Below, piece after piece: positions 36,547 to 44,155 of a stretch of 64,000 nucleotides of DNA. Positions within the stretch are counted from its first letter, which is position 1; each line of letters starts with the position of its first letter. A program made the translations under genes and the position numbers. This DNA comes from Rhodospirillaceae bacterium. Lineage in GTDB: Bacteria > Pseudomonadota > Alphaproteobacteria > Bin65. Below the pieces are notes generated by a model. That model was not told the DNA's origin and did no database searches. It saw only the letters and a program-made list of their open reading frames with translations. The stretch is taken from contig JAPPLJ010000050.1 of NCBI GenBank assembly GCA_028819475.1, positions 310,001 through 374,000 of the forward strand, written 5' to 3'.

Positions 36547-36924
36547 TTACCATCGCCGGTCGATGGCGATGTCGTCGAAAACCCTGTCAAGCGATACCAG
36601 CGCGCACGTCTCCAGACGCGCTTGGGCCGCGAGCAGACGATCCCAGGGATCACGGTGATCCCAATCGAGATGCGCGGCGTACTCTGCGTGGTCGTGGGAG
36701 ATGGCTAGTTCCTCGACAGCATTGCGTCTGAGCGCCGCCCGCAATTCCTGCGGCGGCAGGACGACACGACGGCGCCGGGCCTTCAGTTCAATCTCATAGA
36801 TCGAAACTGCGCTGACCAGCACGTCGTTCGACTGGTCGAAGATCAAGCTCCGCGCGGATTTGGAAAGTCTTTTGTCGCCTGCCATCCACCAGTACGCGGC
36901 ATGGCTATCGAGAAGCAGCTTCAC
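36547..36924 (-). CDS. PIN-domain toxin of a type II TA pair
   Basis: 125 aa. PIN-domain acidic residues are at D6 (LLLDSHAAYWW), the Glu in SAVSIYEIELKARR near residue 44, D91/D95 (WDHRDPWDRLLAAQA) and D112 (LVSLDRVF). The wording LLLDSHAAYW and RDPWDRLLAAQA is typical of the PIN toxins that pair with Phd/YefM-type antitoxins. Such toxins cut RNA. Its ATG overlaps the antitoxin stop by four bases (ATGA), so the two are translationally coupled, antitoxin first. An intact pair. Confidence 0.9.
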   Translation of the reverse strand: MKLLLDSHAAYWWMAGDKRLSKSARSLIFDQSNDVLVSAVSIYEIELKARRRRVVLPPQELRAALRRNAVEELAISHDHAEYAAHLDWDHRDPWDRLLAAQARLETCALVSLDRVFDDIAIDRRW

Positions 36925-37202
36925 GGCGACGCCTTGCGCCCGCGCCAGATTCCCAGATTGTCGCTGTAGTCGCCGGCATCGATCGCCGCCTGGTCCGCGT
37001 CGTCGCCGTCGAACAGGTCGCCGGGCAGGTTCAGATGGGCCAGCGGCGCGATTTCCCGATGGGCGGGCCCGGACGGCGGAACGAGCCGGGCCTGTGGCTC
37101 GCCGCCCTTGGTGATAGAGATTTCTTCACCGGCCTTGGCCCGGGCCAGAAGCGCCGAGAAATTCGCCCGCGCCTCGGCCGTTTTGTATGTGGTGGACGAC
37201 AT
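36921..37202 (-). CDS. Phd/YefM family antitoxin
   Basis: 93 aa from ATG 37202. The N-terminus TYKTAEARANFSALLARAKAGEEISITKGGEPQARLVP is a clear Phd/YefM DNA-binding domain. The C-terminal half (about residues 60-93, acidic DGDDADQAAIDAGDY) is the likely toxin-wrapping tail. It would neutralise the PIN toxin encoded immediately downstream and repress the operon by binding its promoter. A palindrome 63 bp upstream of the start (37265-37279) is a candidate operator. A longer in-frame ATG at 37331 is rejected because the added residues have no domain and cover the palindrome. Confidence 0.9.
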   Translation of the reverse strand: MSSTTYKTAEARANFSALLARAKAGEEISITKGGEPQARLVPPSGPAHREIAPLAHLNLPGDLFDGDDADQAAIDAGDYSDNLGIWRGRKASP

Positions 37203-37264
37203 GAACGGCCTCCGTGTTTTTGGCCTGGACCAGTTCTCCGGGCCGGCGCCCGGCCGGTTGCAAT

Positions 37265-37279
37265 CTATGTACAACATAG
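37265..37279. promoter_or_regulatory. Palindromic operator candidate of the Phd/PIN operon
   Basis: CTATGT-ACA-ACATAG is a perfect inverted repeat, extended imperfectly by flanking TGCAA/TTGCA. It is AT-rich in a GC-rich setting and lies upstream of the antitoxin gene. Phd/YefM proteins bind short TGTACA-like palindromes, so autoregulation through this site is likely. Confidence 0.55.
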
Positions 37280-37384
37280 TTGCACAAATGCAAACCGGCG
37301 GTGCGGCGGCGCAATGACGCCCGGAGGGCATCGGGACATCGCTTCATTTGTCCCGGTAAAGGGTACCGACCCGGCGCGCGGGGC

Positions 37385-38449
37385 CTATCCGCGATACACC
37401 AGCCGGATCTGCTGCTGCGTCCGTTCGAGGCGGACGCCCTTTGCCCATTGCGCCGAATAGGGGGTCGCCGGGCGGAAATCCGGGATGCGCAGCCACAGGC
37501 GCCACAGCACGCGCCTGCGCTCCGGCTCCGGCCAGTCCTCGAAGGCGGTCCGCGTGTGCAGCGCCGTGTAGTTGTTGAGGAACTGGATGTCGCCGCGCTC
37601 GAACCGCATCGCGGCGTGGTGCTCCTCTGCCAGGTCCGACATGAACTCGATAGCCTCGCACTGACGGGCCGTCATGTCCGGCGCGTCCGGCAGAGCATGG
37701 CCCTTGATCATGTGTTGCGGACCGAACGCGATGCACAATTTGCCGTCGAGGAAATTGAACGCCGGGCTCTCATAGTACGGTAGCTCGCCGGCCTCCATCT
37801 CGCCGTGCTTGGTCCAGCAATAGGGCTGCGTCAGCGCCTCGAACAGGTCCGGGCGGCGGCGCAGCACCTCGTTGTACAGCCGGACCGAACTGACGATCTT
37901 CGACAGGCCGCCGGACTTCGCCGTGCGCAGGCACAGCAGCCCGACCGCGTCGGTCTGGTCGCAGTGATAGTCCATCGTCGCGCTGGTCTGGTAGCCGCGG
38001 TGCCGCGGATGGTCGTAGTCGCGCCCGGCGTCGAGCACATGGCCGATCATGTCGCCTTCGGGGTTGTTGGACTGGGCGGCGCCCATGTGCAGCCCCATCG
38101 CCCAGTAGACGACGGCGGTTTCCATGAGCGACAGCTCGTCCAGCGGCAGACCGCGGTAGAGCGCAATGCCCGGCCCGTCGCGCAGCAGGCCGAGCATGGC
38201 CTCGACCGTATCGGCGAAGGGGCCGAGGTCGAAATCGCTGCGGCCTGCATCGAGCAGCCGGTTCGGATCGCCGCCCAGCCGTGCCGCGGCGGCGCGCGCC
38301 ATATCGACCAGATGGGCGGTCTCGGCGGCGGTCGCGTCGAGGCGCCAGTCGCTCCGGGCGGTCAGGTCCGCGCCGGTCCAGTCCGCCGGATCGGCGACGG
38401 GCCGGCCCGGGACGGCGACGGGTCGGGCGCTGGCGCTCACCTCGTTCAT
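37385..38449 (-). CDS. TauD/TfdA family Fe(II)/2-oxoglutarate dioxygenase
   Basis: 354 aa from ATG 38449. The facial triad is visible: H-x-D in SATMDYHCDQTDAVGLLCL (about residues 172-190) and the distal His in FLNNYTALHTRTAFED (about 305-320), followed by RRRVLWRLWLR with the 2-oxoglutarate-binding arginine. The enzyme would hydroxylate an organic substrate with O2 and 2-oxoglutarate; hydroxylation can trigger loss of sulfite, aryloxyacetate chains or other groups in this family, but none can be assigned here. Members with this wording (GLLCLRTAKSGGLSKIVSS) are common uncharacterised alphaproteobacterial proteins. It is divergent, by 113 bp, from the haloacid-dehalogenase-like gene. Confidence 0.87.
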   Translation of the reverse strand: MNEVSASARPVAVPGRPVADPADWTGADLTARSDWRLDATAAETAHLVDMARAAAARLGGDPNRLLDAGRSDFDLGPFADTVEAMLGLLRDGPGIALYRGLPLDELSLMETAVVYWAMGLHMGAAQSNNPEGDMIGHVLDAGRDYDHPRHRGYQTSATMDYHCDQTDAVGLLCLRTAKSGGLSKIVSSVRLYNEVLRRRPDLFEALTQPYCWTKHGEMEAGELPYYESPAFNFLDGKLCIAFGPQHMIKGHALPDAPDMTARQCEAIEFMSDLAEEHHAAMRFERGDIQFLNNYTALHTRTAFEDWPEPERRRVLWRLWLRIPDFRPATPYSAQWAKGVRLERTQQQIRLVYRG

Positions 38450-38562
38450 GCTGCTCCTCCGCAGAAGGTTCGCAACCTCACTATCCCTATCGGAAATGGC
38501 TTGCAACGCCGCCGGTCGCGCGGCACATGCCCGGCGCATACCCCTTGCAGCGAGACCCGACC

Positions 38563-39288
38563 ATGCGTCTGACCGATTTCAAGGCCCTCACTTTCGATTG
38601 CTACGGCACCCTGATCGACTGGGAGGCCGGCATGATCGCAGCTCTCAAGCCGCTGACCGGCCGTGTGGACCGGGCGCTCGGCCGGAACGAGATTCTGGAG
38701 GCCCACGCCTTCCAGGAATCGACGGCCCAGCGGACCAGCCCGGCCAAGCCCTACCCGGAACTCCTCGCCGTGGTCTACAAGCGCCTTGCCGAGGAATGGG
38801 GCGTCCCGGCAAGCTGGGAGGAGTGCCTCGCCTACGGCGCGTCGGTCAAGGACTGGCCCGCCTTCGACGACAGCGCGGAATCGCTGCATTATCTGAAGCG
38901 GCATTACAAATTGATCGTCCTGTCGAACGTCGACAACGCCAGCTTCGCCCACTCCAACCGCAAGCTGGAGGTCGACTTCGACGCCATCTACACCGCCGCC
39001 GACATCGGTTCCTACAAGCCGGCCCCGCGCAACTTCGAATACATGCTCGAGCAGCTCGCCCGCCACGGCGTCGGCAAGGACGACATCCTCCACACGGCGG
39101 AGAGCCTGTTCCACGATCACGGGCCGGCCAACGATTTCGGCCTCGCCAACTGCTGGATCTACCGCCGCCACGGCGAGGCCGGGGCCGGCGCGACCATGCC
39201 GCTCGCCGAACGGCCACGCACCGATTTCATGTTCCACTCCCTGGCCGACTTCGTCGCGGCCCACAAGGCGGAACTGGCGGCAGCATAG
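38563..39288 (+). CDS. Haloacid dehalogenase type II-like HAD hydrolase
   Basis: 241 aa from ATG 38563. Motif I is LTFDCYGTLIDWEAGM with nucleophile D12. Motif II is IVLSNVDNASF (about residues 120-130) and motif III/IV GSYKPAPRNFEYML (about 148-161) with the conserved Lys. The FDCYGTLIDWE sequence and the absence of a second Asp two residues after D12 resemble L-2-haloacid dehalogenases more than phosphatases, but many such proteins are not proven dehalogenases. It precedes the transglutaminase-like gene by 78 bp in the same direction and may belong to that operon. Confidence 0.82.
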   Translation: MRLTDFKALTFDCYGTLIDWEAGMIAALKPLTGRVDRALGRNEILEAHAFQESTAQRTSPAKPYPELLAVVYKRLAEEWGVPASWEECLAYGASVKDWPAFDDSAESLHYLKRHYKLIVLSNVDNASFAHSNRKLEVDFDAIYTAADIGSYKPAPRNFEYMLEQLARHGVGKDDILHTAESLFHDHGPANDFGLANCWIYRRHGEAGAGATMPLAERPRTDFMFHSLADFVAAHKAELAAA

Positions 39289-39307
39289 CGCCGCGCCCCG
39301 GTTTCGT

Positions 39308-39335
39308 TTGACGCGCCGGGACGAGGCGTTAGGTT
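39308..39335 (+). promoter_or_regulatory. Possible sigma-70 promoter of the double-[4Fe-4S]/ligase operon
   Basis: TTGACG (39308-39313) and TAGGTT (39330-39335) are separated by 16 bp in the gap before the transglutaminase-like gene. The -35 hexamer is close to consensus, the -10 weak (three of six matches). It would start transcription about 25 bp before the GTG start codon at 39367. Confidence 0.35.
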
Positions 39336-39366
39336 TCCCCTACTTCGATCAAGGGGGAGCGAGGGC

Positions 39367-40131
39367 GTGACGGATCCGTTGATCTTCGAGAAGGAACCGC
39401 AGGACGGCGTGCCGCTGGCCGACGCGGAGCCGCCGGCCTTTCTGGAACCGACCTGGTATATGGATTTCGACGAACCGGACGTGCAGGATTATGCAGAGCG
39501 CAACGCCGGCGACGCGCCCGACCATCTCGGCAAGGCGGTCAACCTGTTCTACGCCATCCGGGACGATTTCCTCTATTCGCCCTATTCCATCCCGATCGAC
39601 CGGGCGGAATACAAGGCGAGCGCCCTGATCCGGCGCGGCAGCGGCTGGTGCGTGCAGAAATCGCTGGCGATGGTGGCCTGCTGCCGCCATCTCGGCATCC
39701 CGGCCCGGGTCGGCTATGCGGACGTCAAAAACCACCTGACGACGCCCAAGCTGCGCGACGCCATGGGCACCGACATCTTCTCCTATCACGGCTATGCCGA
39801 TATCTGGCTCGAGGGACAGTGGGTGAAAGCGACGCCGGTGTTCAACCGCACCCTGTGCGAGAAGGCGCGGGTCAAGCCGCAGGAGTTCGACGGCCGGGGC
39901 GACGCCCTGTTCCAGGAATACGACGCCGCCGGCCGCCGCCACATGGAATATCTCCAGGATCGGGGTATTTACAGCGACATTCCCTTCCACGAAATCATGA
40001 CCGACTTCGCCTGGCGCTATCCGAAATACAAGGAGGAGCAGTGGAATCTCGGCGGCTCGGATCCCGAGAGCTTCGCCGACGACGCCGCGGGCCACGCCCA
40101 GCCGGAGACCGGCGCCGGAAAAGCGGCCTGA
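39367..40131 (+). CDS. Transglutaminase-like cysteine protein
   Basis: 254 aa from GTG 39367, with GGGGGAGCGAGGG ahead. The transglutaminase-like fold is recognised by GSGWCVQKSLAMVACCRHLGIPARVGYADV, where C95 is the candidate nucleophile, and by H141 in SYHGYADIWLEGQWVKATPVFN. The third residue of the triad, usually Asp in a D-P-T context, is replaced here by T156-P, so catalysis may differ or be lost. Family members are proteases, amidases or non-catalytic scaffolds. It is followed two bases later by the first double-[4Fe-4S] gene (TGAGCATG), so tight coupling with a redox pathway is the main clue to its role. Confidence 0.8.
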   Translation: MTDPLIFEKEPQDGVPLADAEPPAFLEPTWYMDFDEPDVQDYAERNAGDAPDHLGKAVNLFYAIRDDFLYSPYSIPIDRAEYKASALIRRGSGWCVQKSLAMVACCRHLGIPARVGYADVKNHLTTPKLRDAMGTDIFSYHGYADIWLEGQWVKATPVFNRTLCEKARVKPQEFDGRGDALFQEYDAAGRRHMEYLQDRGIYSDIPFHEIMTDFAWRYPKYKEEQWNLGGSDPESFADDAAGHAQPETGAGKAA

Positions 40132-40133
40132 GC

Positions 40134-41183
40134 ATGCCGGACGGCGCCGCCGCTCCGGAAATGACGGCCGAACGGGTCAAGGCCCTCGCCGCGGGCCTGG
40201 GCGCCGACCTTGTCGGCATCGCCAGCGCCGAAACGCTCAACGCCTTCCCGCCCGACCCGCGCTGGCCCCAGACGCCGGACCGGGTCTCGCCCCACGTCAA
40301 GTCCGTGGTCGCCATCGTCCAGCACATCCCGGTCGCCGCCTTCCGGGCCAAGACCAACATCGCCGTCCAGTATATCGACATGCTGGTGCTGCGCCGGATG
40401 GACCGGATCGCCTTCCGGATCGCCGAGGCGCTGGAGGACGCCGGCCATCCCTCCTTCGTCACGGCAGCGCAGGAGACCGACTGGAACCTGAAGCGGGCCA
40501 GTTACGGCCGGCTCTCGACCCGCCATCTCGGCATCGAGGCCGGGCTCGGCACCTTCGGACTCGAGGTCAACATCCTGACGCCGGAATACGGGCCGCGGGT
40601 CTATCTCACCGGCATCCTCACCGAGGCCGAGCTGGAGCCGGACGAGATCCTGACCGAGCAGGTCTGCATCGGCGAAAGCTGTTCGCGCTGCCTGTATTCC
40701 TGCCCGTCCGACGCGGTGCGCCATTTCGGCATCGACAAGCGCGAATGCGCGACCGAGGCCCAGGAATTCGGCTACGCCCAGATCACCGGCTTCTTCGACC
40801 GCTATATCGGCCTCGACCGGGAGCGGAAGCGCGATTTCAACAAGAGCCGCGGCGTGTTCGGCTTCTGGCAGGGGCTGCTGCGGGTCGTCGGCTCGTTCGG
40901 CGACTGCCCGCGCTGCCTGGCGGTCTGCCCGGTCGGCAACGACTATCACGCCTACCTCGCCGACGTGCAGAAGTTCATCCCCGAGAAGACGCCGCAAAAG
41001 GTCGAAAAGGCCAAGGCCTTCAAGCAGGCGCGCAAGGACGGCGCCGAGATCGACGGGCTCAACGACTGGAACGAACGCTGGGTCGGCCCGGAGGGCTACA
41101 AGGGCATGGTCGCGCGCCAGGTCCAGGCGTTCAAGAAAGCCCAGCGCGAGCGCGAGGCGGCGGCTGCCGGAGCGGAGGACTGA
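40134..41183 (+). CDS. QueG/reductive-dehalogenase-like double-[4Fe-4S] protein, copy A
   Basis: 349 aa from ATG 40134. The first half (about residues 11-170, with LGADLVGIASAETLN, HLGIEAGLGTFGLEVNILTP and PRVYLTGILTEAEL) resembles the cobalamin-binding region shared by epoxyqueuosine reductase QueG and reductive dehalogenases. The second half has ferredoxin-type cysteines C178, C183, C186, C190 (CIGESCSRCLYSCP) and C258, C261, C265 (CPRCLAVCPVG), plus C205. There is no twin-arginine signal and no membrane anchor, unlike respiratory dehalogenases. The C-terminal 70 residues are rich in Lys/Ala and probably helical. It is cytosolic, likely a low-potential reductive enzyme, and a paralogue of the next gene. 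The substrate is unknown. Confidence 0.8.
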   Translation: MPDGAAAPEMTAERVKALAAGLGADLVGIASAETLNAFPPDPRWPQTPDRVSPHVKSVVAIVQHIPVAAFRAKTNIAVQYIDMLVLRRMDRIAFRIAEALEDAGHPSFVTAAQETDWNLKRASYGRLSTRHLGIEAGLGTFGLEVNILTPEYGPRVYLTGILTEAELEPDEILTEQVCIGESCSRCLYSCPSDAVRHFGIDKRECATEAQEFGYAQITGFFDRYIGLDRERKRDFNKSRGVFGFWQGLLRVVGSFGDCPRCLAVCPVGNDYHAYLADVQKFIPEKTPQKVEKAKAFKQARKDGAEIDGLNDWNERWVGPEGYKGMVARQVQAFKKAQREREAAAAGAED

Positions 41184-41187
41184 CCCC

Positions 41188-42174
41188 GTGGCGGTTTCCG
41201 TCTTCCAGGAGGCCCTGACCGCGGCCGACATCAAGGCGAAGGCGCGCGAACTCGGCGCCGACCTGGCCGGCATCGCCGACAGCGCCGAGATCAACGCCAA
41301 CCCGCCCGACCCGGCCGACCCGCGCATTCCGGCCGACATCTCGGACTACGACGCCGACCGGGTGATCGTGCTGGCCAAACGGCTGTCGGCCGGCGTGACG
41401 CGCATCCCGCGCTGGGACGAGCGGCACAAATATTACAACGACGAACTGACCATGACGACGCTCGAGGAGATCGCCCTCGAGCTGGTGCTGTGGCTGGAAG
41501 CGAAAGGCTGGCCGGCCCTCATCGTGCCGCCGACCCATGTCGATCCCTGGCGCTACCGCGGCGATCCCGGCGAGCCGATGAAGCCGCTGCTCTCCCTCGA
41601 CCATTGCGCCGTCGAGGCCGGGCTCGGCACCCTCGGTCTGAACCTGCAGCTGCTGACGCCGGAATACGGCCCGCGGGTGATGCTCGCCGGCGTGCTCTGT
41701 TCGGCGCCGGTCGAGTGCGACAGCCGGACGGAAACCGCCCTGTGCAAGGGGCCGGAATGCGGGCGCTGCCTGCGCACCTGCCCGGGCGACGTCGTCGGCC
41801 ACTGGGACCGCGACTGGGCGGGCTGCGACAAGTTCCGCGCGCCCCACGGCTTCCATCATCTGACCGACTTCATGGACCGGATGCTCGACGCCGAACCGGC
41901 GCAGCAGAAATCCATGTTGCGCTCGGAAGACACCTTCGACCTGTGGCAGTCGATCCTGCGCGGCGCCGGCGCGATCACCGGCTGCCGGCGCTGCCAGGAC
42001 GTCTGCCCGGTCGGCGCGGATTTCGAGCGCATGATCGGCGATTCGCTCGACGACATGCCCGAGGACAGCGAAGAAAAGCGGGCGCGGCTCGCCGGCTATG
42101 CGGAAGCCGAAGCGGCCGGGCCGATGCCGGAGGGCTACGAAGCGCAGAAACGCTGGATCGGCCGGTTCGCATGA
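41188..42174 (+). CDS. QueG/reductive-dehalogenase-like double-[4Fe-4S] protein, copy B
   Basis: 328 aa from GTG 41188, four bases after copy A. It is collinear with copy A: ELGADLAGIADSAEINANPPDP near the start, CAVEAGLGTLGLNLQLLTPEYGPRV (about residues 140-164), then C186, C191, C194, C198 (CKGPECGRCLRTCP) and C266, C269, C273 (CRRCQDVCPVG), with C213 matching C205 of copy A. Every cysteine is shifted by exactly eight residues, so the two arose by duplication and both keep complete cluster sites. Copy B has extra substrate-side sequence (TRIPRWDERHKYYNDELTM). The stop overlaps the ATG of the PaaK-like gene. A heterodimer or two consecutive reductases are equally possible. Confidence 0.8.
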   Translation: MAVSVFQEALTAADIKAKARELGADLAGIADSAEINANPPDPADPRIPADISDYDADRVIVLAKRLSAGVTRIPRWDERHKYYNDELTMTTLEEIALELVLWLEAKGWPALIVPPTHVDPWRYRGDPGEPMKPLLSLDHCAVEAGLGTLGLNLQLLTPEYGPRVMLAGVLCSAPVECDSRTETALCKGPECGRCLRTCPGDVVGHWDRDWAGCDKFRAPHGFHHLTDFMDRMLDAEPAQQKSMLRSEDTFDLWQSILRGAGAITGCRRCQDVCPVGADFERMIGDSLDDMPEDSEEKRARLAGYAEAEAAGPMPEGYEAQKRWIGRFA

Positions 42175-43460
42175 CCCTTGCGTTCCCGAAGTCCCAGGCC
42201 GAAATCGACGCCATCCGGCGGGAGCGGATGCGCGCCGCCGCCGAGGCCGCGCTCCGCGCGCCGCTCCATCGCAAACGCCTGCCGGCCGACCTCGATCTCG
42301 ACCGCATCCACGAGCCGGACGAATGGCGGCGCATCCCGATCCTCGACAAGGAGGAGCTGCGCGCCCTCTCCCCGCGCGCGTTCATGACCGACTTCAACAT
42401 CGCGCCGCGCGAGGACATCGAGGAATACTGGCGATCCGGCGGCTCGACCGGCAAGCCGCTGTTCTATCCGCGCACCTTCCGGGACATGGAGTTCATGTTC
42501 GAGGGCTTCCGGCGCGGCATCCATCTCGCCGGTGTCCGCGCGGGCGACACGGCGCACATCTCCTACCCGCTCGGCATCCATCCGGTCGGCCATGTCAGCG
42601 CCCGGGTCTGCCAGCAGATGGGCGTCGGGGTGAACTGGGCCGGCGCCGGCGCCAACACGCCCTCGGCGGTCCAGGTCGAGCTGATCGACCAGATGCGGCC
42701 GACGGTCTGGATGGGCATGCCCGGCTATGCGCTCCATCTGGCGAATCTCGCCGAGGCCGCGGGCTTCGACCTGAAGAACTCCTCCGTAGAGAAAATCCTG
42801 TGCTGCGCCGAGCCGCTTTCCGCCGCCAAGCGGGCCAAGATCGAGAGCATGTGGGGCGCCACCGTCTACGACGGCTTCGGCATGACCGAGATGTGCATGA
42901 TGGGCGCGGAAGACGAGCTGCACGACGGCTTCCGCATGTGGACCGACATGTTCCACCTCGAAGTGCTGGACCCGGAGAGCCATGAGCCGGTCGGCCCCGG
43001 CGAGGAAGGCGTGCTGGTCTCCACGGCCCTGTGGAACGTCAACGCCACGCCCTTCATCCGCTGGAATTCCGGCGACCTCGTGGTCTGGCGCTCGATTGAA
43101 GCGGAAGGCGACGGCTACAGCGTCTTCCCGCGCCTCAAGCACGCCCACCGCACGGCCGGCTTCTTCAAGGTCCGCGGCATCAACATCACGCACGGGGACT
43201 TCGAGGATTTCATGTTCGCCATGGCGGGCGTGCAGGACTTCAAGTGCGAGGCGCTGGCCGGCCCGGACGCGCTCGACGTGCTGCGCGTGTCCTACGAGGC
43301 CCGGAAGGAGGCGGACGCCGACGCATTGGCGGCCCAACTGTCCGAGAAGATCCGCACCGTCTTCGAACTGCGCCCCGAACTGGTCCAGCTCGACCTCGGC
43401 ACGCTGGCCCGCGAATTCGAAGGCGCCGTGAAAGCGCCACGGTTTCAGGACCGGCGGTAG
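42171..43460 (+). CDS. Phenylacetate-CoA ligase (PaaK)-like AMP-forming enzyme
   Basis: 429 aa from ATG 42171 (ATGA overlap with copy B). The P-loop RSGGSTGKPLFYP (about residues 88-100), YDGFGMTEMCMMGAED (about 235-250, adenine-binding) and GDLVVWRSI (about 305-313) mark the PaaK/CapK branch of adenylate-forming enzymes, which activate aryl or phenylacetyl acids as CoA thioesters. The usual C-terminal catalytic lysine region is represented by AGFFKVRGINITHGDFEDF. The length equals that of true PaaK. Coupling to two low-potential Fe-S reductase-like proteins suggests an aryl-CoA or other acyl-CoA that is then reduced, as in reductive aromatic pathways; this is inference. Confidence 0.84.
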   Translation: MTLAFPKSQAEIDAIRRERMRAAAEAALRAPLHRKRLPADLDLDRIHEPDEWRRIPILDKEELRALSPRAFMTDFNIAPREDIEEYWRSGGSTGKPLFYPRTFRDMEFMFEGFRRGIHLAGVRAGDTAHISYPLGIHPVGHVSARVCQQMGVGVNWAGAGANTPSAVQVELIDQMRPTVWMGMPGYALHLANLAEAAGFDLKNSSVEKILCCAEPLSAAKRAKIESMWGATVYDGFGMTEMCMMGAEDELHDGFRMWTDMFHLEVLDPESHEPVGPGEEGVLVSTALWNVNATPFIRWNSGDLVVWRSIEAEGDGYSVFPRLKHAHRTAGFFKVRGINITHGDFEDFMFAMAGVQDFKCEALAGPDALDVLRVSYEARKEADADALAAQLSEKIRTVFELRPELVQLDLGTLAREFEGAVKAPRFQDRR

Positions 43461-43466
43461 GCGGCG

Positions 43467-43901
43467 TCAATCGACCAGCGGGTTGCGAGTGGCGAGGCCG
43501 GGAAAACGGCCGAAGTCCCGGTCAGCGGTCCAGAGCTCCGATACTCCGTGGGCGAGGCAAAGCGCAGCAATCCGCGCATCGTGCACCGCCGGGCCGCGGA
43601 CCCGTCCCGCCAGAAGCTGCGCCTTCAATACCGTCCAGTGCGCGCTGGTTTCCGCAAGCAGACGGACAGCCGGGGAAGCGAGCCAGACCTCGACCTGGTC
43701 CAACGCCTGCGTGATCGTGGAGGGCGGGTCGTAGATCGCCGGATGGGAGGCGACGGCGATGAACTCGTGCACGCAGGGCCAGGGCAGCCCCCAAGGCGCG
43801 CGCCCTTCCGCAAGCCGCCGGAGGCAGGCCCGCGCGGGCCCGTGCCGGTCCGAGTCGGCGCGGTGGGCGTAGACCAGGATATTGGTGTCGACCGCGATCA
43901 A
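43467..43901 (-). CDS. vapC: VapC-like PIN-domain ribonuclease toxin
   Basis: 144 aa if started at TTG 43901, whose bases overlap the antitoxin stop (TTGA) and which is preceded by GGGCGGGGAAG. An alternative ATG at 43943 would add 14 residues read through the antitoxin gene. PIN acidic residues are D4 (AVDTNILVYAH), Glu in CVHEFIAVAS, Asp in AVHDARIAAL and Asp in TADRDFGRFP. This is the classical VapC set for Mg2+-dependent RNA cleavage. It is transcribed after its antitoxin, and its 3' end lies six bases from the end of the convergent PaaK-like gene. Confidence 0.88.
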   Translation of the reverse strand: MIAVDTNILVYAHRADSDRHGPARACLRRLAEGRAPWGLPWPCVHEFIAVASHPAIYDPPSTITQALDQVEVWLASPAVRLLAETSAHWTVLKAQLLAGRVRGPAVHDARIAALCLAHGVSELWTADRDFGRFPGLATRNPLVD

Positions 43902-44155
43902 CTTCCCCGCCCGGCATAGGCGGCGTCGCGGATCCGGTCCCAAATCCGGTCTTGGCCGGCCTCGCGAAACGCAGCCTGCAAGCCCCGGCCGCCGACGCTG
44001 GCGTCGCGCAGGGTAAACGGTGCCGGCGCCTGCCCGGCGCGCAGCACCTCGATCAGGCCCCGTTCGACGAGCGAACGGAAGGTGACGCCCTCCTGCGCCA
44101 TGTAGGCCTTCACCTCTTCGGCGAGACCGTCGGAAATTTCCACCGTGGTTTTCAT
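43898..44155 (-). CDS. vapB: VapB-like ribbon-helix-helix antitoxin
   Basis: 85 aa. MKTTVEISDGLAEEVKAYMAQEGVTFRSLVERGLIEVL has the pattern of a ribbon-helix-helix DNA-binding domain, and the C-terminal region (FREAGQDRIWDRIRDAAYAGRG) is the likely toxin-binding tail. It would inhibit the adjacent PIN toxin and repress its own operon. Two nested palindromes start directly before its ATG (44156-44213). The pair lies between the PaaK-like gene and recJ and is the second intact TA pair near the 37-43 kb cluster. Confidence 0.88.
   Translation of the reverse strand: MKTTVEISDGLAEEVKAYMAQEGVTFRSLVERGLIEVLRAGQAPAPFTLRDASVGGRGLQAAFREAGQDRIWDRIRDAAYAGRGS

Follow-up and report, generated by a model that had tools for sequence, protein, structure and literature searches.

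A tandem pair of class-III cobalamin/[4Fe-4S]-type proteins beside a PaaK-like ligase as a candidate aryl-CoA reductase in a Rhodospirillaceae bacterium

A 64,000-nt window of the genome of a Rhodospirillaceae bacterium (GCA_028819475.1, contig JAPPLJ010000050.1, positions 310,001-374,000 of the forward strand) contains four tightly packed genes at 39367-43460, encoding a transglutaminase-like protein, the tandem proteins RdhX1 and RdhX2 (hereafter X1 and X2) and a PaaK-like ligase (Table 1). The packing described in the initial annotation of the window was confirmed, with open reading frames (ORFs) separated by 2 bases (transglutaminase-like/X1) and 4 bases (X1/X2) and overlapping by ATGA (X2/PaaK-like). 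The reading that we favour, with moderate confidence, is that X1 and X2 are a heterodimeric cobalamin/[4Fe-4S] reductase that takes a ring substituent off a CoA-activated aromatic acid and feeds aerobic aryl-CoA pathways. This reading builds on homology, conserved cysteines, a conserved tyrosine, altered active-site positions, gene order, a gene fusion and co-occurrence across genomes, all established at the sequence level.

The two proteins had been described as paralogues with exactly offset cysteines that share the two-cluster architecture of QueG and RdhA (class III), and both points held. The eight cysteines of X1 (178/183/186/190/205/258/261/265) and X2 (186/191/194/198/213/266/269/273) are all offset by exactly 8 residues and did not vary among the 68 homologues aligned for either protein, except for a single ambiguous X at C261. 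They are predicted to ligate two [4Fe-4S] clusters in each protein. The profiles of X1 and X2 matched each other end to end (hhalign, E 4.5e-73). When the 68-sequence profiles were compared with the PDB, X1 matched QueG and PceA, and X2 additionally matched NpRdhA. Moreover, in hhalign both proteins aligned full-length with QueG and the reductive dehalogenases (RDases), and both the N-terminal module and the cluster region were covered. Given these matches by sequence, PDB profile and hhalign, the similarity of the sequences to QueG and RDases is not due to chance. Nevertheless, X1 and X2 reached only 50.5 and 30.3 bits with the QueG model TIGR00276 (cut-off 200) and 33.5 and 15.8 bits with the RDase model TIGR02486 (cut-off 160), so that no curated family claims either protein.

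In the class-III active site, one tyrosine is common to all members (QueG Tyr101, PceA Tyr246), QueG Asp130 corresponds to PceA Asn272, and PceA Arg305 is absent from QueG (PMC4646009, Payne et al.). The active site of NpRdhA has Y426 and K488, and dehalogenases carry a Y-K/R dyad (PMC10463259). The common tyrosine was found in the same hhalign column in 67 of 68 X1 sequences (Y80) and 64 of 68 X2 sequences (Y83), and Y157 was also conserved among the X1 homologues. The position of the catalytic QueG Asp130 (FVDTAP motif) was occupied by Thr (T110) in 63 of 68 X1 sequences, and X2 was without an equivalent; the Asp was present in 15 of the 16 QueGs of the class that were inspected, the remaining one having been missed by the search pattern. 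The position of PceA R305/NpRdhA K488, which was Lys or Arg in all 11 dehalogenases inspected, was Tyr (GPRVY) in 68/68 X1 and Met/Ile/Leu/Val in 66/68 X2 sequences; it was located by counting along GPR.(R/K) in PDB alignments, and all these residue correspondences come from sequence alone. Both proteins also kept the N-terminal domain and the GLGT/TPE.GPR region, which correspond in the alignment to the part that binds cobalamin in RDases and QueG. By this homology, X1 and X2 would bind cobalamin base-off in a nitroreductase-type module.

In a maximum-likelihood tree of the sequences, X1 (support 98/99) and X2 (100/99) were placed as two well-supported clades outside the QueG and RDase families, and a further tandem family, 'Y', formed a clade of its own (100/99). 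A 99/97 branch parted X1, X2 and 'Y' from QueG and the dehalogenases, with an uncertain deep order where long branches meet.

The gene order is not unique to this genome. One scan of genome contigs yielded 80 loci, which formed 73 groups once near-identical loci were joined; gene calling in related loci relied on a codon-score script instead of standard annotation, and some neighbours were labelled by eye. X1 was directly followed by X2 throughout (median gap 1 base), and in locus L113 (3811-5865) the two are fused in one 684-aa ORF, followed by a CoA-ligase-like gene. Because they are adjacent throughout and fused in L113, X1 and X2 are obligate partners. The same PaaK-like ligase was located directly behind X2 on the same strand in 52 of the 73 groups (median gap 3 bases), which supports the proposed link to an aryl-CoA ligase, and elsewhere in the locus in 6 further groups. 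Its score with the PaaK model TIGR02155 (138 bits) was far under the cut-off (646 bits), indicating by sequence a distinct subfamily that is not PaaK; its nearest solved relatives were PaaK (2y27) and 2-hydroxyisobutyryl-CoA synthetase (6hdw). Beside X1-X2(-PaaK), a MetE-like methyltransferase family protein was seen in L083, L084, L088 and L103, and a small cupin in three of these (by eye).

X1 is rare, being present in 11 of 385 genomes and 6 of 276 genera in an even sample of the class. The carriers were Alphaproteobacteria, bins labelled Betaproteobacteria and a few others, originating from sponges, seawater, soil and groundwater according to the record titles. The bacterium of the window is a sponge dweller, close relatives were sponge-associated, and many X1 genomes came from groundwater and soil. 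Amorphus coralli DSM 19760 and Tateyamaria sp. ANG-S1 seem to be cultured carriers. No X1 homologue was found on plasmids. In the open-access literature no description of the X1-X2 pair was found (QueG/RdhA with CoA ligases, anthranilate, aerobic PaaK clusters, sponge symbionts), which is a weak absence.

The statement in the initial annotation that the gene set fits no known pathway was too strong, since these genes recur in clusters for aerobic CoA-dependent aromatic degradation, together with AbmA/salicylyl-CoA hydroxylase, benzoate-CoA-ligase family, PaaA-like diiron oxygenase, gentisate dioxygenase and kynureninase genes. The recurrent neighbours were a Liv-type ABC substrate-binding protein (18 groups), the benzoate-CoA-ligase family (17), enoyl-CoA hydratase (15) and AbmA/salicylyl-CoA 5-hydroxylase (15), and single clusters added gentisate dioxygenase, PaaA-like diiron proteins and a true RDase. 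The RDase was found directly behind X2 at L117:10048-11406 (179 bits, cut-off 160) and L130:10047-11405 (gene map), and gentisate dioxygenase-like genes were nearby in both loci. In L129, an indolepyruvate ferredoxin oxidoreductase-like (IorA-like) subunit was encoded downstream. In related genera of the family to which the window belongs, the operon extends further and includes kynureninase (316 bits, cut-off 246) and arylformamidase (298 bits, cut-off 223).

A match to the AbmA-like model NF006101 was present in all 50 of 50 X1 genomes at E <= 1e-60, 41 of them over the cut-off; most of the other 9 were near it or cut by contig ends. In the even class sample, AbmA occurred in 71 of 385 genomes (E <= 1e-180), including all 11 X1 genomes (hypergeometric p 4e-9 by genome, 2.7e-5 by genus). 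BoxB was found in 46 of 50 X1 genomes, and both co-occurrences count in favour of the reading preferred here. The reverse dependence did not hold, as X1 was present in only 11 of the 71 AbmA genomes, which fits an add-on feeding the AbmA pathway. The genome analysed here encodes a full-length NF006101 enzyme at C30:194103-196352 (1090 bits, cut-off 1078), within a complete-looking AbmA cluster (L204:8071-16403; G000:C30, about 194-202 kb) that comprises AbmA-like, benzoate-CoA-ligase family, acyl-CoA dehydrogenase, enoyl-CoA hydratase, MarR, SDR and Rid protein genes. Kynureninase was found in 30 of 50 X1 genomes and is thus not universal, indicating that tryptophan is not the sole source. Anthranilate-type substrates are favoured by AbmA, by kynureninase and by the Rid-family proteins of AbmA clusters (in L129 by eye). 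Going by co-occurrence and neighbourhood, X1-X2 may have a role in the AbmA pathway.

In the mechanism that we propose, X1 and X2 would form a cytosolic heterodimer, representing a third lineage within the class-III cobalamin enzymes, and each subunit would carry cob(II/I)alamin and two [4Fe-4S] clusters. The neighbouring PaaK-like ligase would turn an aromatic acid, probably a 2-amino- or 2-hydroxy- acid, into its CoA ester. Low-potential electrons would run via the clusters to the corrinoid, which would reductively strip an amino, hydroxyl or halogen substituent from the ring. The product would most likely be 2-aminobenzoyl-CoA, salicyloyl-CoA or benzoyl-CoA, which the cell's own aerobic aryl-CoA pathways, of the AbmA or Box type, would then take up. 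Cobalamin binding, the CoA-ester substrate and the reaction itself are what we infer for X1-X2. The initial annotation had envisaged a cytosolic route in which an acid is activated to its CoA ester and then reduced or dehalogenated; a reductive step on a CoA ester was supported, whereas dehalogenation received no special support because the dyad Lys/Arg was absent from 68/68 X1 sequences and not found in X2.

Several observations weigh against the favoured reading. Since the aligned sequences have neither the Asp of QueG nor the Lys/Arg of RDases, none of the proton-donor mechanisms known from class III can be transferred to them directly. The AlphaFold predictions (10-row alignments) reached pLDDT values of 50 (X1) and 46 (X2) and were too poor to show a pocket because the alignment depth was too low; the cobalamin pocket is therefore argued from sequence. 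No cobalamin riboswitch was found in the window or in five other loci. The p-values for the association of AbmA with X1 ignore shared ancestry and genome size, and the AbmA test was picked after AbmA had been seen near 15 loci. BoxB was intended as a specificity control, yet it co-occurred as well, and its count covers X1 genomes only. Additionally, neighbourhoods vary between genomes, so that one substrate may not suit all carriers.

Other contigs of the same genome (G000) carry related genes. Another X1-X2 pair, with identities of 62% and 64% to that of the window, is located at G000:C4:11329-13343. The gene immediately upstream of it encodes a benzoate-CoA-ligase-family enzyme (502 bits, cut-off 375), while its other side is taken by FAS1-dehydratase/MaoC-like and PaaA-like genes; in same-genus copies of this pair, thiolase-like and ferredoxin-reductase-like genes came next (by eye). 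Contig C63 (L047:7343-11028) carries a divergent tandem QueG-like 'Y' pair and a 110-aa small protein, the pair being divergently oriented from a PaaK-like ligase 48% identical to that of the window. At L048:7908-13655 (G000:C30, about 27.9-33.7 kb), the genes behind a true RDase (177 bits, cut-off 160) encode a CoA ligase, a 'Y'-type QueG-like protein and a 656-aa fusion of a small 108-aa family with another CoA ligase; here dehalogenase-type proteins are again tied to CoA ligases. Two more RDase-like genes were seen at G000:C21:43243-43782 and G000:C67:10586-11152, one of them in a 758-aa frame whose length resembles the reductase-fused NpRdhA type. The genome also encodes CobS, which shows only a capacity to make or salvage cobalamin.

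Among other explanations, an oxygen-tolerant dehalogenase with a changed active site, acting on halogenated aromatic acids or their CoA esters, was considered unlikely but the most credible. Brominated anthranilates derived from sponge bromotryptophans via kynureninase would be an example of its substrates, and the sponge association of the close relatives, the true RDases in the same genome and directly behind X2 in L117 and L130, and the kynureninase and type II haloacid dehalogenase genes of related clusters all agree with it. However, the dyad Lys/Arg is replaced in both proteins, X1 and X2 stand apart from the RDases in the tree and score under the RDase cut-off, and many X1 genomes are of groundwater and soil origin. 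Slightly less likely still, X1 and X2 could be iron-sulfur electron-transfer or activating proteins without corrinoid turnover that feed another enzyme of an aryl-CoA pathway. The incomplete state of both known active sites, the ferredoxin motifs that partly define the nearest families and the lack of a pocket in the AlphaFold models point this way, whereas the retained class-III tyrosine, and the N-terminal domain and GLGT/TPE.GPR region that align with where RDases and QueG bind cobalamin, point to a corrinoid enzyme.

An ATP-independent ring-reducing enzyme that dearomatises aryl-CoA appears improbable. The CoA-ester context, the reductive fold and the low-potential donor gene in L129 would suit it, and the ring-oxygenase genes AbmA and BoxB are present in the same genomes; but AbmA and Box already dearomatise using oxygen, and what this family is known to do with cobalamin is to cleave carbon-halogen and epoxide C-O bonds, not to reduce rings (PMC4646009). 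That one or both proteins are QueG, the tRNA epoxyqueuosine reductase, has a negligible probability. TIGR00276 was indeed the best named family by HMM, but the scores of about 50 and 30 bits fall far short of its 200-bit cut-off, the catalytic Asp is missing, QueG forms a separate clade and its C-terminal repeat domain is absent from X1 and X2. Furthermore, a canonical QueG is encoded elsewhere in the genome (C30:119419, 442 bits). The scores, the missing Asp, the separate clade and this canonical copy rule out in practice that either protein is QueG.

To our knowledge, class-III cobalamin enzymes have been characterised only as dehalogenases or epoxyqueuosine reductases. Under the favoured reading of X1-X2 as an aryl-CoA reductase, there would be a third clade, which has active-site residues of its own, consists of two obligate paralogues and is constantly partnered by a CoA ligase. 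Such a clade predicts new corrinoid chemistry in bacteria that use oxygen, and it would account for some marine, sponge-associated and groundwater bacteria reductively trimming aromatic acids ahead of oxygenative ring opening. A bolder proposal, which we regard as speculative and rather doubtful, is that X1-X2 adds a third functional class, and the first heterodimer, to the cobalamin/iron-sulfur enzymes; it would catalyse reductive deamination or dehydroxylation of aryl-CoA esters and could be the kind of enzyme behind the conversion of 2-aminobenzoyl-CoA to benzoyl-CoA. Azoarcus evansii converts anthranilate anaerobically into benzoyl-CoA by means of a ligase and a 2-aminobenzoyl-CoA reductase, and the available part of the review gives the latter as an activity without a gene name (PMC4539516). 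X1-X2 is a candidate type for this chemistry, not an assignment.

Table 1. Genes of the module and its upstream neighbours in the window
Feature	Coordinates	Strand	Evidence
Transglutaminase-core protein, 254 aa	39367..40131	+	Pfam PF01841, 51.8 bits
RdhX1, class-III cobalamin/[4Fe-4S]-type protein, 349 aa	40134..41183	+	Profile matches QueG, PceA
RdhX2, tandem paralogue of X1, 328 aa	41188..42174 (GTG start)	+	Architecture as X1
PaaK-like AMP-forming acid-CoA ligase, 429 aa	42171..43460	+	AMP-binding PF00501
Haloacid dehalogenase type II, 241 aa	38563..39288	+	TIGR01428, 157.6 bits (cut-off 125.4)
TauD/TfdA-type Fe(II)/2-oxoglutarate dioxygenase	37385..38539	-	PF02668, 103.6 bits

The haloacid dehalogenase (HAD) and TauD genes, which had been listed as preceding the module, are real but adjoin it in same-genus loci only (L063, L064, L067 and L068; gene maps). 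They are genus-level neighbours outside the conserved unit and were set aside as pathway steps. A type II HAD near the cut-off (123 bits) was also found in the cluster of locus L072. The transglutaminase-like gene had been counted as part of the module. It does adjoin it here, but it is an accessory, adjoining X1-X2-PaaK in 8 of 73 groups and in two gene orders (preceding X1 in five groups and following the ligase in three). Its candidate catalytic residues are C95 and H141, with T156 or N160 as the third member instead of the usual Asp; C95, H141 and N160 were kept in 12 homologues, and no solved relative was found by sequence. Toxin-antitoxin-like pairs were seen on both sides of the module region, at 36547-37331 and 43467-44155 of the window (Phd/YefM antitoxin with a PIN-like neighbour, and PIN toxin with a small antitoxin-like ORF).

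Compared with known systems, X1 and X2 share with the RDases (NpRdhA 4RAS, PceA 4UQU; TIGR02486) the N-terminal cobalamin-type domain, the two [4Fe-4S] motifs, the class-III tyrosine and the G-L-G and (T)PE.GPR motifs. Unlike RDases, they are two obligate paralogues of ~340 aa without the dyad Lys/Arg or a fused reductase, and a CoA ligase is their constant partner. QueG (5D08, 5D6S; TIGR00276) resembles them in its cytosolic location, similar size, eight-cysteine plan and Tyr101-equivalent tyrosine, whereas X1 and X2 differ in lacking an Asp130 equivalent and the C-terminal repeat domain, in being a tandem pair in a catabolic gene context and in their separate clade. The module ligase has the fold family and AMP-binding motifs of PaaK (2Y27) and 2-hydroxyisobutyryl-CoA synthetase (6HDW), but unlike PaaK it falls far under the equivalog cut-off. 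As for the 2-aminobenzoyl-CoA pathway of Azoarcus evansii (AbmG ligase, AbmA monooxygenase/reductase), as covered in the available part of PMC4539516, an AbmA homologue is present in essentially all X1 genomes and a full AbmA-type cluster is also present on C30 of this genome. None of the descriptions of the AbmA pathway that were found includes an X1-X2 pair, and the extra PaaK-like ligase of the module belongs to another subfamily.

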